This document shows, one piece after another, positions 5,003-60,551 of a stretch of DNA of 64,000 bases; positions within the stretch are counted from its first letter, which is position 1, and the number at the start of each line of letters is the position of its first letter. This DNA comes from Thermococcus aggregans. GTDB taxonomy: Archaea > Methanobacteriota_B > Thermococci > Thermococcales > Thermococcaceae. The stretch is from the NCBI RefSeq assembly GCF_024022995.1, contig NZ_CP099582.1, forward strand, positions 248,001 through 312,000, written 5' to 3'. The translations under genes and the position numbers were made by a program. The notes beneath the pieces are model-generated. The model did not search any database. It was given only the letters and a program-made list of their open reading frames with translations, and was not told where the DNA came from.

Positions 5003-6550
5003 ATGGTTGACAAAAGTCTTGGAGAGATTATTCAAAAGAAGACTATACCTTGGCTTCAATCAGTTAGGACGCCCCATAAATATTTCGTTTTAAATTCTCT
5101 AACTCTACGTAATCCTCCCAGAGCCCTTGTCAGATTTGGGACTCGGAATGTCTACACAGATTTTCCTAGAGTTGCATGGATTATATACAATGAACTTCAC
5201 AGATATTGTAATTTTATTGCATCTCAATGGTTCTCTGAAGAAGATAAACTTCAACTTAATAATCTTGAGAGTGCAGATGATAAAGAAAACTCACGAAGAA
5301 AATTAAACTGGATAGTGCAACATATCAAAAATGAAAAAAAGACAGATCATCCACTAAATACTATATATCAATACACAACGTATTTAGAAAAATTGGGGAT
5401 AACTTGGTCAATACATTTTAGATCGTGGGATAAGAGGCCCTTTATTAAACTCAACGCAAATCGTTATTACAAGCAGATTTGGCCTAAGAAAATATTGAGT
5501 TTTATCTCGTGCTTGGAATCTGGTAATGATAATCCAATGGCTATTTACAAAATGGCAGGGGATATGAGTGTCGAATATCCTCTTGGAGACACTACGGCAG
5601 TACAGCCCAATATATTCAGGTTATTAAGTGAAAATGGTATTAGCATTATTATGGAAGTCGAGAAATTGAAAAAGCTTGTAACTAAGTTGGCTAATATATT
5701 TAGTATAGTCAACGAAACTACTGTCTATGACTTGTTCCTCCAACCAGAAATAAGTGCAATTTTGAATGACATGCACGAGACGTTGAATGAAATTAGAATT
5801 TTAGAATATGGGGGTCACTTTCTCAGTGGATATTTTGCACTGAGACATCTGCTGATAGACCTTGGGAATGTTTTACTTATAGATTTTTTAAGTTCACTTT
5901 CAAAAGAGGTGTTACCTCCCCTCTATCCGGATGACTTTGAGAAACGACGTGAAATTATAGAACACAACTTTGAACAGTCTATCTGGGAACTCGAAGAGTA
6001 TCTTGATAATTTTAATTCTCGTTGGATTCAGTCATTAGCAGTTGATAATGTTGGCATTCCACACTTAAAAATTTTCAATGGTTGCACTATGCCGGAGTTG
6101 GAATATAAAGAAATTAGTCGGTTAGAACATCTTGCAAATAGGTACAAAAATGGGGGAATTCGTGAAGATATACAAAATCTCAGAAGAATTAAATTGCGAG
6201 ATTCTGCGCTAGTGGATCTAATTGACTGGGTTATTAATAGCCAAAGAGTATTTTCAGATGTCATAACTGACGTCCAACTCTTAAGCAAACTATCGTCTAA
6301 TAATTCACCTAATCTGTCCTCAAATGAAAAGAAAAAATCTAAATTTATACTCAATGCATCCCTTGCCAAAAATGAGTATGGAAAACTAAACGAAGCTGTG
6401 CACAGACCAATCTTAGTTGATTTCCCTCCGTACGGTTCAACAATTGAGTATCTCGGATTTGTGCATCACTTAAGAATCGTGAGAAACATTTTCGAAAAAA
6501 TAGTAAGGATTTACGGCAGAAAAAGTAAAACAAAAGCTCACTCAATATAA
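5003..6550 (+). CDS. Orphan AT-rich protein of unknown function
   Basis: This 515-residue protein has no signal peptide and no family I recognise. Its codon use is clearly more AT-rich than the neighbours (many ATT, AAT, GAT codons), which suggests recent transfer. The N-terminal half contains many aromatic and basic residues; the central part has long helices, including [20 protein letters not shown], which is vaguely like the helical core of HEPN-type proteins, but I cannot confirm this. The ATG at 5003 is chosen because a TATA-like tract lies upstream and the in-frame GTG at 4994 has no ribosome site. The 3' end overlaps the convergent leuS by 13 bases. Confidence 0.6.
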
Positions 6551-9426
6551 ACCGCAGGCTTCATTGGCATTGCTTGTTTCTTCTTTCCGCCTTTGTCTTC
6601 TTCAGGGTTTATAATAATCTCAAGGCCGGTTTCGCGTTCTATGAAGTCCTTTGCCTGTCTTAGGGCTTTCTCCTCATCAATGCGCTTGAGGTCAAAAGCC
6701 CTCTCCTTGACGAGCTTCTGAATTAGCTTTGAAACTTCCTTGCCGCGCTTCCTCACCTCGGGATCCTTCATAACTTCGCTCATTGCAGCCTTGAAGTCCT
6801 TCTTCTCTGCAACCACTTGGGCAACTTTCCACTTCCAGTCCTCTGCAGTGTAAATGTAAGCCCTCTTTGCGTTCTCAAGCTTTGCAACGCTGACGATCTC
6901 TTTTATGTCCTCGATGAGTGTCTTGATGTACTCCTCCTCAAGCTCTATCGTTTCGTTCCACCACTCTTCAACGGGCTCTGGCCACTTAGCTAAGCTTACG
7001 AAGCCCTCTCCTCCAAGCTTCTCCCATAGCTCTTCACATATGTGCGGTGTGAACGGTGCCATCAGCTTAACCCATATATTGGCCAGCTTCCTTAGTGTTG
7101 AGCGCTTTGCTTCATCGTCCCTTCCCTCTGTCCTCCTCATGTACCATCTCAGGTCGTTTAATATGCTGTAGAAGGCCCATTGGACTGCTGTTCTAGTTCT
7201 AAATTCTTCCAAAGCCTCGGTAGCACCTTTTATGGCTTTGTTGACTCTGTGGAGCAGCCACTTATCGATGTCCATTAGCTCAACGTCTTTTTCTTCGTAC
7301 TGGGCGAACTCTGTTATCAGCTCGTAAAATCTCTCGATTTGTTTTCTCAGCTTTCCAACCTCACTTCTCTTCCAATCAAAGTCGCTGTCGTGCTCGGCAA
7401 GGCTCATGATGTAAAGCCTGACTACATCGGCTCCGTTCTCTTCTATTGCGTCTATGAAGTTGAGGACGTTTCCTTTGCTCTTGCTCATTTTCTGTCCTTC
7501 GAGAGTTCCAAAGCCGTTAACCGCTATGCCCTTTGGCCAGTGCTCCCTTCTGAATATCGCCACGTGGTTGAATATGAAGAACGTTAAGTGGTTTGGTATG
7601 AGGTCTTTGGCAGAGCATCTCCAGTCGAGTGGATACCAATACTCGAACTCCTCTTTCATTTCATGGACAACTTCAGCGGGGATTCCTGTCTTTTCGCTTA
7701 GTTCTTTCTCTTTTTCTTCGTTGAAGTCCTCAAGGAAGATGTAGTCGAAGAACTCAGGCGTCAGCTTCTCCGGATCAAGTTTGCCCTCTTCTCTTAGCTT
7801 ATTGATGTGCCTGCTTATGGTGTAGTAGGCCATGTAGATGGTCGAGTCGCTCAGGCTCTCAATAACCCACTCAGGATCCCACGGCAGTGGAGTCCCAAGA
7901 CCTACTTTTCTCGCACATGCCTTCTTGTCAAGCCACTCAATTACGGCCTCAAACTGTGCTCTCCTTGATTCTGGCAAGATTTTCATGTTTGCCAAAGCCT
8001 CTCTCGCCTTTGCTTTCCATTCTGGATTTCCATAATCGATGAACCACTGATCGTGGATTATTTTTATCACGGCCCTGTTTCCAAACCTTGAAATTACGTT
8101 TTTGTCTGAGAATTCATACATCTTATCTGCTATTCCTTTTTCTAGCATTTCCTTGGCTACCAGTTCTTTTACCTCGCTGACCGGCTTTCCTTTGTATGGC
8201 TCAATTTTGAAAACACCTTTGTGGTACTCAGCTTTGTAGATGTTTTTTGTAGCCTGTTCAAGCTTTTCTACATCTTTTTGACTCTTTACACCAAGCTTCT
8301 CGCTTTCTTCAACTGCTGGGAACTCTCCATAGCCTTCCAGCTCAATAAGGGAGATGTAGCTTATTTCCTCAACGATTCTTGGATCAATGTCGTACTTCAG
8401 CAAGATTTCGGTGTCCTTCTTTATGTCTTCCAAGGCAATGTGATCGAAGGGCGCATGGGCGGGAACGCTCATTACAACTCCAGTAGCGTTGTCTGGATCA
8501 ACGAACTCGGCAGGCAGAATGATTATATCGTCTCCCGTTACAGGATTCCTAACCCACTTTCCAATTAGCTTTTCTCCCTTGAACTCTTCCAGAATTTCAA
8601 TCTCCTTGTCTTGGAAGCTCAGCTTATAGGCTGCTTCCTTGCTTATTATCCACTTCTCCTCCTTGTCTCCACTTTTAACCTTGGCTTTCACATAAGTAGC
8701 TTCTGGGTTCAACCACATGTTCGTTACGCCATAGACGGTTTCAGGTCTTAGAGTTGCCGCTGGCAGGTAGTAGATATCACCATTCTCTTCGAGAATGAAC
8801 TTTATCAAAATGTACTCCAGTATCTGGACGTCTTCTCCCTCAATTAAGTCGTGGTCTCCCAAAGGAGTTCCAACGACGGGATCCCACCTAACATAGTGAG
8901 TTCCCTTGACAATCAATCCCTTTTCCTTTAACTTCCAGAACTGCCACTCAACAAACTTGCTGAATGGCGGGAAGAGACTAGTAGTATGGAATTCTCTGCT
9001 CCAATCAACACTAAAACCGGCTCTGATAAAGGTTTCCTTTGCGGCTTTCATAAAGTACTTTACTATGTTTACTGGATCTTCAAATGTCCATAGAATATCC
9101 TCCGGAACTTTATAGACGTCTCTGTAAACGTAAATTGTCTGAGGATCTCTCTGCTTTATCCTTTCTGCTATTCCCACAATTGGAGACCCCGTTATGTGCC
9201 AAGCCATTGGGAACAAAACGTTGTAACCCTGCATTCTCTTGAACCTTGCAATAACATCTGGTATCGTGTAGGTTCTGGCGTGCCCAACGTGCAAATGCCC
9301 CGATAAGTATGGAAACGCAACTGTTATGTAGAATTTGGGCTTCTGTTCATCTATTTGGGGCTCAAATATTTTCTCTTCCCTCCATTTACTCTGCCATTTT
9401 TCTTCAATCGCTTTGAAATCTACCAT
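6538..9426 (-). CDS. leuS: Leucyl-tRNA synthetase
   Basis: Class I aminoacyl-tRNA synthetase of 962 residues, the usual length for archaeal LeuRS. The HIGH signature appears as HLHVGH at residues 44-49. The KMSKS signature appears as KMSKSKGN about two thirds along. Between them lies the CP1 editing domain; the anticodon-binding domain follows. The enzyme charges tRNA-Leu and edits misactivated amino acids in the cytoplasm. AAGGAGGTTAGCCC directly precedes the ATG. No nearby gene suggests a wider operon. Confidence 0.98.
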
Positions 9427-54937: not shown

Positions 54938-55384
54938 TCAGTCCCAATCTACTGGATGTGCTGTTACTATCCTGTAGAGGCCATCAGAAACTTTTCTGAT
55001 AACTACCCTTAGCCTGTTCTTGGCGCCGAGCCCGTAGTAATACTTTTCAAGGACTACCTCATTTGGTGGATTACTTCTGTCACAGTTTATTTCACCAGTT
55101 TCAATTGTCTCTTTGAGTATTTGAAGGAGCATATCTGCGGTTAAGTACTTGAATTTTGACTTATATTTCCATTTTTCTTCTAAGATATGCCTGTCGATTA
55201 TGTGCTTTGCTCCCCTCTTATCAATGATAACGTCTCCTTCTGGAAAGTAGCCTCCACAGCTGTATCTCCCCTTGAACTTCACCCTAAAGTTCTTGTACTC
55301 CTTGTCAAAATCCTCCGCAAGCTTCTTAGCTTTGTTAGCGTCCCATCCGTTCAGGTATGCTCTTGCGAGGTGCTCTTCAAAGTA
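54938..55384 (-). pseudogene. Orphan toxin C-terminal fragment (cassette 3)
   Basis: The frame is open for 148 codons after a TAA at 55385-55387. Before the GTG at 55282 it has no usable start codon. It begins with the linker ARAYLNGWDANKAKKLAEDF shared with the other copies, then YSCGGYFPEGDVIIDKRGAKHIIDRHI, and ends with RVVIRKVSDGLYRIVTAHPVDWD. The two histidines, the R-V-V-I strand and the terminal T-A-x-P strand recur in all copies and recall BECR-fold ribonuclease toxins; this is inference. It lacks the secretion module of the full gene at 59310-60260. If translated from GTG 55282 it would be a bare toxin domain. Confidence 0.65.
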
Positions 55385-55406: not shown

Positions 55407-56132
55407 TTATAGGCTATGGAGAAAGTTTCTAAATCTCCTTAAGACTTCAATATATGTTAATAATGGCTCTCTCCATGGGCCCTCGGGAAGCAGCTGGGCC
55501 AGTTTTTCCAAGGAATTCAACGTTTCCACACCCATCTCGAAGAAAGCCTCTGACAGGGAGTCGGCATCGCATTCTATCAGGATCCTCTTCGGGTTAAGCG
55601 TTCCATTCCTCTCGGCGAAGTAAATCTCCGAGCATACAATCGCCCTTTCCCCGACGCGTTTAAATATCACCGGGTTCAGATACTTTCCAAATAACACGTC
55701 AAAAACAGATCCCTCGATGTCAGGACACTCCAATATATATTCGTGCCTTAGTTCTTCAATGGACACCTCTTTTAGTTTAGGATCAGGTATTCGCTTTAGT
55801 TCTGGGGGATAAATCCATCTTCGCAGGAATTCGGTGAAGTAATCGCTTATGACGACTTCTTTGTTAAATTTCTCGAGAGATCCTTTGAGATAAATGCTCA
55901 CAAGAAACGAATCCTGCGGAACAAGAAAGAACCTTAATGGCTCCATAGAGTCGTCTGAGAGGACTTCATGCCCCATGATTTTTAGTGAATATCTGCCCGG
56001 AGGTAAAAGAAAGAGCCTCGAAAGAGTATGGAGGCGCATAGGCTTTTTGTTCCGGACCAAAAAATCCTTAACGTATTCCCCGCTTTTCACCTTTCCTCTT
56101 AGGTATTCAACATCGAAGTACCAGCTTATCAA
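55407..56132 (-). CDS. Putative immunity protein, family A copy 2
   Basis: The protein has about 241 residues and is a clear paralogue of 58478-59209: WYFDVEYL against WHFDLERI, YPPELKRIPDPKLKE against YPPELRRLPDPRLKE, and similar ends. The TTG at 56132 follows GGAGGGGG and gives the family start; TTG 56147 is possible. An N-terminal fragment of the same family lies at 59222-59278. It ends 23 bases before the orphan fragment of cassette 3. Confidence 0.6.
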   Translation of the reverse strand: MISWYFDVEYLRGKVKSGEYVKDFLVRNKKPMRLHTLSRLFLLPPGRYSLKIMGHEVLSDDSMEPLRFFLVPQDSFLVSIYLKGSLEKFNKEVVISDYFTEFLRRWIYPPELKRIPDPKLKEVSIEELRHEYILECPDIEGSVFDVLFGKYLNPVIFKRVGERAIVCSEIYFAERNGTLNPKRILIECDADSLSEAFFEMGVETLNSLEKLAQLLPEGPWREPLLTYIEVLRRFRNFLHSL

Positions 56133-56158
56133 GGCTACCCCCTCCAAAGGCGTCTTTC

Positions 56159-56904: not shown

Positions 56905-57372
56905 TCATCCCTTTGTAACTGGAAACGCCGTAATGACCTTCCACCGGCTCTTGCCTATACACTGAATCACGACCCTCAGTTTAACACCTAATTTTGGTTG
57001 GTATTTTTCTATTGCTATCCTTTTTAAATCGGTTCTGCTCTCGGCACAATTAACCTCTCCATTTTCGATACTGTCTTTTATTAGTTTTAATAGTTGCTTT
57101 GCAGTTAATTGTTCAAACTTTGATTTTAGTGGGTGGCTATCAACCAAGATGTGGGCTTTGATTATATGCTTCGCACCTTTCTCCGTAATTATGACTTCTC
57201 CGGGTTTGCAATTGACGCTTCCACACAAGCTTCTGGCATTATAGTATGCTCTGAATGTCTTGTATTCTTTGGCAAATCCTCTTGCAAGCTTCTTCGCCTT
57301 ACTAGCATCCCATCTGTTCAGGTATGCTCTTGCCAGGAGCTTGCTAATTAAGTAATTAAGTTTATTCCCAGT
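56905..57372 (-). pseudogene. Orphan toxin C-terminal fragment (cassette 2)
   Basis: The frame is open for 155 codons after a TAG at 57373-57375, with only TTG 57228 as a possible start. It reads ARAYLNRWDASKAKKLARGF, then CGSVNCKPGEVIITEKGAKHIIKAHI, and ends with LRVVIQCIGKSRWKVITAFPVTKG. The linker is about as close to cassette 3 as to cassette 1, while the region around the C-terminus is more divergent, as expected when the toxic part is exchanged. No N-terminal secretion module. Confidence 0.65.
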
Positions 57373-57955: not shown

Positions 57956-58453
57956 TCACTCCAAATATGCTGTTATCACCTTGTAGAGTTTTCTTGCCCT
58001 GTCATACGTAAGAACTACTCTCACTTTCCTGCCAACCCATTTTCCTTTAAAGTATTTAAATCCCTTCTCGATGACAAATTTGTCTGGTGTGTGTTCCCTA
58101 TCATTGCAGTCAATTTCGCCTTGTTCAATAGTTTCTTTAATAATGTCCAAAATGAATCCAGCAGACCAGTCTGCTGGAAAGAGCGTTGGATCTCGTTCTC
58201 CAGGTCGTTTCTTTCCTAAAATGTGACGCCTAATAATGTGTTTGGCTCCATATCTGTCGTTACCTTTCTCTATGATAACGTCTCCCTCTGGGAAATAGCC
58301 ACCACAGCTGTATCTCCCCCTAAAGTGCGCTCTGAAATTTTTGTACTTTCTGTCAAAATCCTCTGCAAGTTTCTTCGCTTTGTTTGCGTCCCATCCGTTG
58401 AGCCATGCTTTTGCAAAGGTACAACGGTGTTTATCATCTTTTACTGTTCTCCA
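57956..58453 (-). pseudogene. Orphan toxin C-terminal fragment (cassette 1)
   Basis: The frame is open for 165 codons after a TAG at 58454-58456 but has no start codon until TTG 58150, which is inside the domain. It reads AKAWLNGWDANKAKKLAEDF, then YSCGGYFPEGDVII, GAKHIIRRHI, and ends with VRVVLTYDRARKLYKVITAYLE. An insertion between the HII-x-x-HI motif and the next helix makes it longer than the other copies. The part from the linker to GDVII is very similar in DNA to cassette 3 and could allow recombination between copies. A TATA-like ATTATAAAAAACC lies about 20 bases upstream. Confidence 0.65.
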
Positions 58454-59221: not shown

Positions 59222-59278
59222 TCAAGTTTTATTCTGAGCCAAGTATTCAACATCGAAGTACCAGGTTATCAAGTTCAT
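59222..59278 (-). other. Truncated N-terminal copy of a family A immunity gene
   Basis: A micro-frame of 18 codons, starting with ATG 59278 after GGGGTGA, reads LITWYFDVEYLAQNKT and stops. Thirty-one bases (59243-59273) match the start of the family A gene at 56103-56133 with one mismatch. It is probably the stump of an immunity gene lost by deletion. Confidence 0.65.
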
Positions 59279-59309
59279 CACCCCATGATAAAAATGCGGA
59301 GGGCAAAAG

Positions 59310-59801
59310 TTAACCCTCCGGAAGGGCAGTCTTCACCTTCCACTCACCTTTTATCTTCTCTATCACGACCCTGTACCACACTCCACCCTTGTTCTTCCTG
59401 AGAACTGCTTCTTTACCGTTTTTATTACATTCTGATGCACTCCTGTCAAAGGACTCTATGACCTCCTTAATCACGTTTGCTATATCCTCCCCTGAATCAA
59501 CATTCCATTTGCTGTTTCGTTTCTTCCATGTCGCGGCTTCCATAGTAATGTGGCGTTCGATTATATGTTCCCTCCACCCAGGATCCATTGTGACATCTCC
59601 AGCTTCGCATCTCTCAAGTCCTTTAAACTCTGCATGGAAATTCTGCGTAGCTTCTCTAAATTCACGTGCTATCTCATAGGCATCTTTGGCATTCCAGCCC
59701 TTTTTGTAAGCCTGTGCCAATATTTTCCCAAGCTCCTTCGGGCTGAATAAGTCTTCGACAGCCTTGACCTCGTCCCTGGTTATTGTGATGATGGGCTTCA
59801 C
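59310..59801 (-). CDS. Toxin C-terminal domain of the full-length polymorphic toxin
   Basis: From the GTG at 59801 the frame has 163 codons; upstream it stays open to a TGA at 59874-59876 and, beyond that, continues in the same frame into the secreted N-terminal module. It contains AQAYKKGWNAKDAYEIAREF (linker), HAEFKGLERCEAGDVTMDPGWREHIIERHI, and ends with WYRVVIEKIKGEWKVKTALPEG. The two histidines in HIIERHI, the R-V-V-I strand and the terminal T-A-x-P strand are the conserved positions of all four copies. BECR-fold ribonuclease activity is inferred from this pattern only. The GTG has no good ribosome site. Confidence 0.7.
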   Translation of the reverse strand: MKPIITITRDEVKAVEDLFSPKELGKILAQAYKKGWNAKDAYEIAREFREATQNFHAEFKGLERCEAGDVTMDPGWREHIIERHITMEAATWKKRNSKWNVDSGEDIANVIKEVIESFDRSASECNKNGKEAVLRKNKGGVWYRVVIEKIKGEWKVKTALPEG

Positions 59802-59873
59802 TATGATGGCTTCCTTTTTGAGGCCCCACCATTTCTTCTTAACGTACCCGTAACCGATTTCTGCCTTATTCCC

Positions 59874-60260
59874 TCAGAAGTTCATCTTAACTCCTTTTGC
59901 CAGTTTCTGACCATTGTACGAAATCTTGTCAGGAATTTCGCTTACGAAAGCCTCGGTGAACTCGCTAACCGGTTTCGAATACACGTACTTAGCGATTGCC
60001 GCAACGATGCTCCCTATTGCCACTATCCATCCTATACCCGAGACAAAGACCTCAAGGAAAGGCTCCACCATAATAGTGGCGCCTCCGAACTGTGGCTGTA
60101 CTTCATCCCCCGGCCTCTTCTCCGGACTGAACTCCTGTGGAACCTTTACGGTACTGTTCACCGTCACGTTAACGAAGCTCGCTGTAGCGCTTGCCCCGCT
60201 GATAGTCAGCCCGAGAATCAAAAAGCTCACAAACAGTGCCACCAATGACTTCCGCTTCAT
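59874..60260 (-). CDS. Secreted/membrane N-terminal module of a polymorphic toxin
   Basis: The protein has 128 residues up to an in-frame TGA. It starts with a signal peptide (KRKSLVALFVSFLILGLTISGASA), then a variable threonine/valine-rich segment, then one hydrophobic segment (about residues 68-92, GIGWIVAIGSIVAAIA). GGAGGTGACCCT gives a strong ribosome site for the ATG at 60260. TTTTTTAAAGTA (about 60307-60318) is the promoter. The frame continues without shift past the TGA into the toxin domain, so the functional product is likely one secreted protein of about 315 residues, now interrupted or read through. Confidence 0.7.
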   Translation of the reverse strand: MKRKSLVALFVSFLILGLTISGASATASFVNVTVNSTVKVPQEFSPEKRPGDEVQPQFGGATIMVEPFLEVFVSGIGWIVAIGSIVAAIAKYVYSKPVSEFTEAFVSEIPDKISYNGQKLAKGVKMNF

Positions 60261-60551
60261 AGGGTCACCTCCGGACAAATTATCCAACAAGAATTTCCAT
60301 CTTATACTTTAAAAAATTTTCTATTTCAAATAGTAAACAAGTTCATAAGAATAGTAAAAATATTACCACTCGATCTTTATCTATTCGTTGGTTGTGCGTT
60401 GGATACTGTTGGGATAATTGTTGATATGCATGGTAATACTGTGTTTTAATTCCTTTACATATATTACAGAAATATCTGGTTACTCCAACCGCATGGTGTA
60501 TTGGACACACATGAGCAATACATTTCCTGCTATTTCTAATCGCAAATTTTA
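60261..60551. other. Intergenic region between the divergent toxin and pdxS genes
   Basis: The left end holds the toxin promoter. A minus-strand frame (60343-60558, 71 codons, TTG start, no ribosome site) encodes two cysteine pairs, CIAHVCP and CNICK, and could be a stray zinc-ribbon remnant, but it lies in the pdxS promoter and was not called. The rest shows no recognisable feature. Confidence 0.3.

Follow-up and report, generated by a model that had tools for sequence, protein, structure and literature searches.

The in-frame TGA that separates a signal-peptide-like leader from a nuclease-like toxin domain in Thermococcus aggregans is very probably an ordinary loss-of-function nonsense mutation in a formerly single leader-linker-toxin gene of a polymorphic-toxin-like system, as judged from comparison with related loci. 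The gene lies on the minus strand of the window, by which we mean the whole stretch of 64,000 nucleotides analysed (contig NZ_CP099582.1, positions 248,001 to 312,000), and its parts and neighbours are listed in Table 1. Read in this way, a puzzling split gene resolves into a clear loss-of-function event, and its family offers a picture of archaeal toxin decay in which breaks in the weapon are frequent and scattered and the shield is usually kept. To our knowledge, this asymmetry of lost weapon and kept shield is known from bacteria and little documented in archaea; it is open to testing in genetically tractable Thermococcus species.

Table 1. Features of the broken leader-toxin gene and of the genes behind it, in order of transcription (positions are those of the window).
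Feature	Position	Strand	Remarks
Ribosome-binding site of leader gene, GGAGGTGA	60265..60272	-	Intact
Leader module, 128 codons	59877..60260	-	Signal-peptide-like N-terminus and one hydrophobic segment (both judged by eye), start of linker
In-frame TGA	59874..59876	-	Aligned with a conserved tryptophan codon in 9/9 relatives covering the site
Rest of linker and nuclease toxin domain of BECR-like (PBECR3-like) type, 187 codons plus stop	59310..59873	-
Remnant of the G008-type immunity gene immA, first ~13 codons (MNLITWYFDVEYL)	59243..59283	-	Directly behind toxin
immB, putative immunity gene, 243 aa	58478..59209	-	Full length; 40% identity with the immunity gene that adjoins the same toxin in G008
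Orphan toxin cassette	57956..58453	-	Open frame in which no start codon covers the whole domain
Putative immunity gene of cassette 57956..58453, 169 aa	57391..57900	-	Assigned by position and by-eye resemblance to the immunity gene (173 aa) that goes with the matching toxin of G057
Orphan PBECR-like toxin cassette, 107 aa	56905..57228	-
Putative immunity gene of cassette 56905..57228, 267 aa	56159..56962	-	Assigned by position only
immA, intact orphan immunity gene	55407..56147	-	60% identity with the immunity gene that G008 has for the same toxin
Orphan PBECR-like toxin cassette, 114 aa	54938..55282	-
Putative immunity gene of cassette 54938..55282, 222 aa	54245..54913	-	Assigned by position

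A stop codon at a conserved tryptophan site

The leader frame runs from its ATG at 60260 to the TGA, which interrupts a frame of 316 positions comprising leader, linker and nuclease-like toxin. Beyond it the frame remains open for 187 codons (59873-59313) up to a stop at 59310-59312. This post-TGA stretch is genuine coding sequence, because homology with relatives decides the matter beyond the chance (about 1e-4) of finding 187 open codons at random. The 25 codons from the TGA to GTG 59801, described as protein-like in an earlier sequence-only reading of the window, are indeed coding and align with a linker that is conserved in relatives (e.g. GSKAEIGYGYVKKKWWGLKKEAVIVKP in G057). Frameshift-aware alignment against the best intact relative identified the TGA as the one lesion in the whole gene, and the coordinates, the shared frame and the 316-position count of the earlier reading proved correct. 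Expression signals are in place ahead of the leader, with a perfect 8 nt Shine-Dalgarno match before the ATG and, by eye, an A/T-rich, TATA-like stretch upstream.

The leader was searched for in 101 related genomes and is present in about 32 Thermococcales loci. Leader, linker and toxin are encoded without interruption, in a single frame of about 320-335 codons, in G025 (L062), G057 (L066), G036 (L067), G019 (L069) and G038 (L064), and in G002 (L068) the frame is also continuous but shortened at the toxin end. Each of the nine relatives with sequence at this site carries a tryptophan codon in place of the TGA, and the stop, found in none of them, is unique to the window genome. Intact single-frame relatives, a conserved tryptophan site and a unique stop strongly support the nonsense mutation that the sequence-only reading had listed among its options. 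The nearest DNA relatives are only 71-80% identical, and no copies were found on plasmids or viral contigs. Given a right base call, one nonsense mutation at this tryptophan codon has truncated the secreted leader-linker-toxin protein, and the strain would make at most a 128-residue leader lacking the toxin domain.

The mutation had also been proposed to be recent, which is plausible rather than proven: the TGA is the sole lesion, and the promoter-like sequence and ribosome-binding site remain. The post-stop region differs from that of G008 with a dN of 0.14 and saturated dS, the linker shows 8 synonymous and 4 nonsynonymous changes, and the window-specific changes in the leader are 11 nonsynonymous and 5 synonymous, figures that do not date the break, dS often being saturated and mosaicism confounding the comparison. 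By its dN and the linker counts the post-stop region looks constrained, which would be explained by a recent break but also by a product that is still translated.

The closest relative of the window toxin, 78% identical, is that of G008, where leader and toxin are also split, at another position (frameshift at about 109). G008 (L061) also has an additional A, relative to G002, in a short run of As immediately behind the start codon of the leader.

Sequencing error, readthrough and functional separation

The best surviving alternative is that the TGA is a sequencing or assembly error and the true gene is intact. An error would sit well with a sole lesion in 316 codons, at a point where all relatives have a sense codon, behind expression signals that are intact. 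However, the change is a substitution and not a homopolymer indel, and the host genome is a single contig of 1,889,107 bases with 99.67% completeness. Gene breakage is moreover common in independent genomes of the family (see below), so a real break in the window is unsurprising, and we regard an error at the TGA as unlikely.

Readthrough, in which the TGA would be decoded at some rate (as tryptophan by near-cognate misreading) to give a little full-length toxin, is highly improbable. The aligned residue is tryptophan, the amino acid that near-cognate misreading of UGA inserts, and the frame beyond the stop is intact, but nothing past background leakiness is indicated. A recoded TGA would be expected to be conserved among orthologues, whereas here the relatives carry the tryptophan codon. 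No tRNA-Sec above the family cut-off was found in the genome, and the anticodons TCA, TTA and CTA are absent from the 45 tRNA genes found by a search that missed the intron-bearing tRNA-Trp even at a loose threshold; selenocysteine insertion and a suppressor tRNA were rejected on these grounds. A downstream recoding structure was likewise rejected, the RNA behind the TGA folding no better than shuffled sequences (z = +0.49). The readthrough option of the sequence-only reading is thus left unsupported.

The same very low probability attaches to a functional separation, whereby the toxin would be off save in rare variants (phase variation) or translation from GTG 59801 would yield it as a cytosolic protein of its own. 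Both frames are open, G008 likewise has its leader and toxin split apart, and about half of the family is broken, but the G008 split lies elsewhere, and neither the kind nor the position of the lesions is constant across loci. A phase-variable gene would be expected to carry a reversible repeat tract where it switches, and there is none at the window's stop, where the context (AACTTC-TGA-GGGAAT) points to a single substitution; deliberate separation, as earlier suggested, finds no support in a stop that no relative shares. Nor is GTG 59801 a credible start. It is a conserved valine codon inside the linker with a Shine-Dalgarno match of only 3 nt, against 8 nt at the leader ATG, and a separate toxin gene beginning there was rejected; the next in-frame start, TTG 59720, is within the toxin domain.

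The toxin domain

The window toxin domain matches PBECR3 with E=4e-5 and 23.9 bits, below the Pfam cut-off of 30, and subsets of the 16 toxins match PBECR1, PBECR2 or PBECR3. A BECR-fold nuclease (PBECR, EndoU or barnase-like) would be expected to have helices at its N-terminus, a meander of four strands and conserved catalytic residues. An AlphaFold2 model of fair confidence (pLDDT 80) has helices followed by a meander of strands (124-126, 131-138, 141-150 and 153-162), and residues H79 and H84 are invariant. A fold search against the PDB gave no significant match, the best being a contact-dependent-inhibition (CDI) chain, 7m5f_C (E=0.025). Taken together, profile match and model suggest that the window toxin is probably a BECR-type RNase.

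In L081, L083, L084, L086 and L090 the leader is joined to another C-terminus, with a motif (E[IV]DII...IECKR) that by eye resembles PD-(D/E)xK nucleases. L092, L093, L094 and L095 represent a separate family of cysteine-rich secreted proteins of ~265 aa which share with the leader only the signal-peptide-like start.

Relationship to known systems

Bacterial polymorphic toxin systems combine an N-terminal trafficking module held in common with exchangeable toxin domains at the C-terminus, and have immunity genes next to the toxins and orphan toxin-immunity cassettes downstream (Zhang et al. 2012, PMC3482391). From its sequence organisation the leader family looks like such a system. In the ~32 loci the same leader precedes C-termini of several types; directly behind the toxin, 16 of 16 intact loci have an ORF of 173-349 aa, the putative immunity gene, with homologous immunity genes behind homologous toxins; and the window has three orphan cassettes downstream, homologous to the C-terminal region. 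The family differs in its short leader, in which one signal-peptide-like stretch but neither repeats nor any known secretion machinery was seen, and in that the sole delivery gene of the window genome is broken. Archaeal counterparts of polymorphic toxins have reportedly been surveyed by Makarova et al., in mBio in 2019.

In T6SS arrays of Vibrio cholerae, immunity genes persist when the effector has been lost or displaced (PMC5361080). In the window family, too, immunity genes outlast the toxin and accumulate downstream, but the setting is archaeal and many of the losses come from a stop or frameshift within the leader-toxin gene, not only from effector displacement. The VARTIG loci of Thermococcales are centred on a module of Ig domains in which no toxin domain was recognised, and pseudogene fragments were noted in them (PMC8416519). 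They resemble the window family in being hypervariable islands that recombine, in belonging to the same archaeal order, and in opening with a long gene that is followed by a varied set of others; the C-termini of the window family, unlike the Ig domains of VARTIG, are nuclease-like.

Immunity genes and orphan cassettes of the window

The immA remnant behind the toxin includes one copy of a 31-nt direct repeat (97%), positions 59243-59273 recurring at 56133-56103, the 5' end of the intact immA. Between the two copies lie immB and two toxin cassettes with their putative immunity genes, a block of ~3.1 kb that was apparently inserted at the 5' end of immA.

The genome has a single copy of the leader, and this copy is broken, so the downstream orphan cassettes are without a working leader of the window type. 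All three would also be undeliverable by the broken leader, since it is the only one in the genome. Some caution is needed with annotation, as several annotated 'toxin' ORFs in the window have no delivery module. The cassette next to immB has ~165 open codons and no start before the domain, and could be produced only once fused to a leader.

Both immB and immA, the candidate immunity genes for the broken toxin, are still open; the strain is therefore probably an immune non-producer, which may resist toxin-deploying neighbours while no longer deploying toxin itself.

Toxin breakage and retention of immunity in the Thermococcales

The leader-toxin frame is intact in 16 of the 32 leader loci and broken in about 16, and the breaks vary in kind and position from locus to locus. 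Broken loci with a single lesion include L079, L080, L085 and L091. Among the single lesions are the window's stop at position 129, a stop at 72 in G003 and, in G057 loci, a stop at 42, a frameshift at 195 and a frameshift at 35 (L091). First lesions fall mostly in the first half of the gene, in a set of loci found via the leader and with the first of several lesions counted.

The adjacent immunity gene is full length relative to its homologue in 11 of the 16 broken loci (the window, L061, L065, L074, L077, L079, L080, L085, L088a, L088b and L089). It is shortened in L070 and L076, absent from L068, and of ambiguous state in L063 and L091. No locus combines an intact toxin gene with a broken immunity gene. 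Discordant pairs, broken toxin with intact immunity against the reverse, accordingly number 11:0 (sign test p ~0.001), for loci that are not fully independent where they share a genome or where immunity genes have spread by transfer.

Five genomes carry immA (the window genome, G003, G006, G008 and G030), and in each of them the gene is intact. Of the cognate toxin, the window has a copy interrupted by the stop, G008 a frameshifted one and G030 a deletion; G003 has none upstream of immA, and the G006 contig ends near immA with no toxin seen before the end. No intact copy of the cognate toxin was thus found among the five genomes, the G006 contig ending nearby.

That a silenced toxin with retained immunity is a recurrent and selected state in Thermococcales, with the window's TGA as one such event, is a possibility that we put forward tentatively. 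Immune non-producers would then arise repeatedly, each through one stop or frameshift within its leader-toxin gene. Both the toxicity of the protein and selection for the toxin-off state are what we infer from the sequences compared. Genes of the immA type with native upstream sequence and no toxin in front of them are found in L079 (G003, 5624-6352) and, near the contig end, in L071 (G006, 7929-8657).
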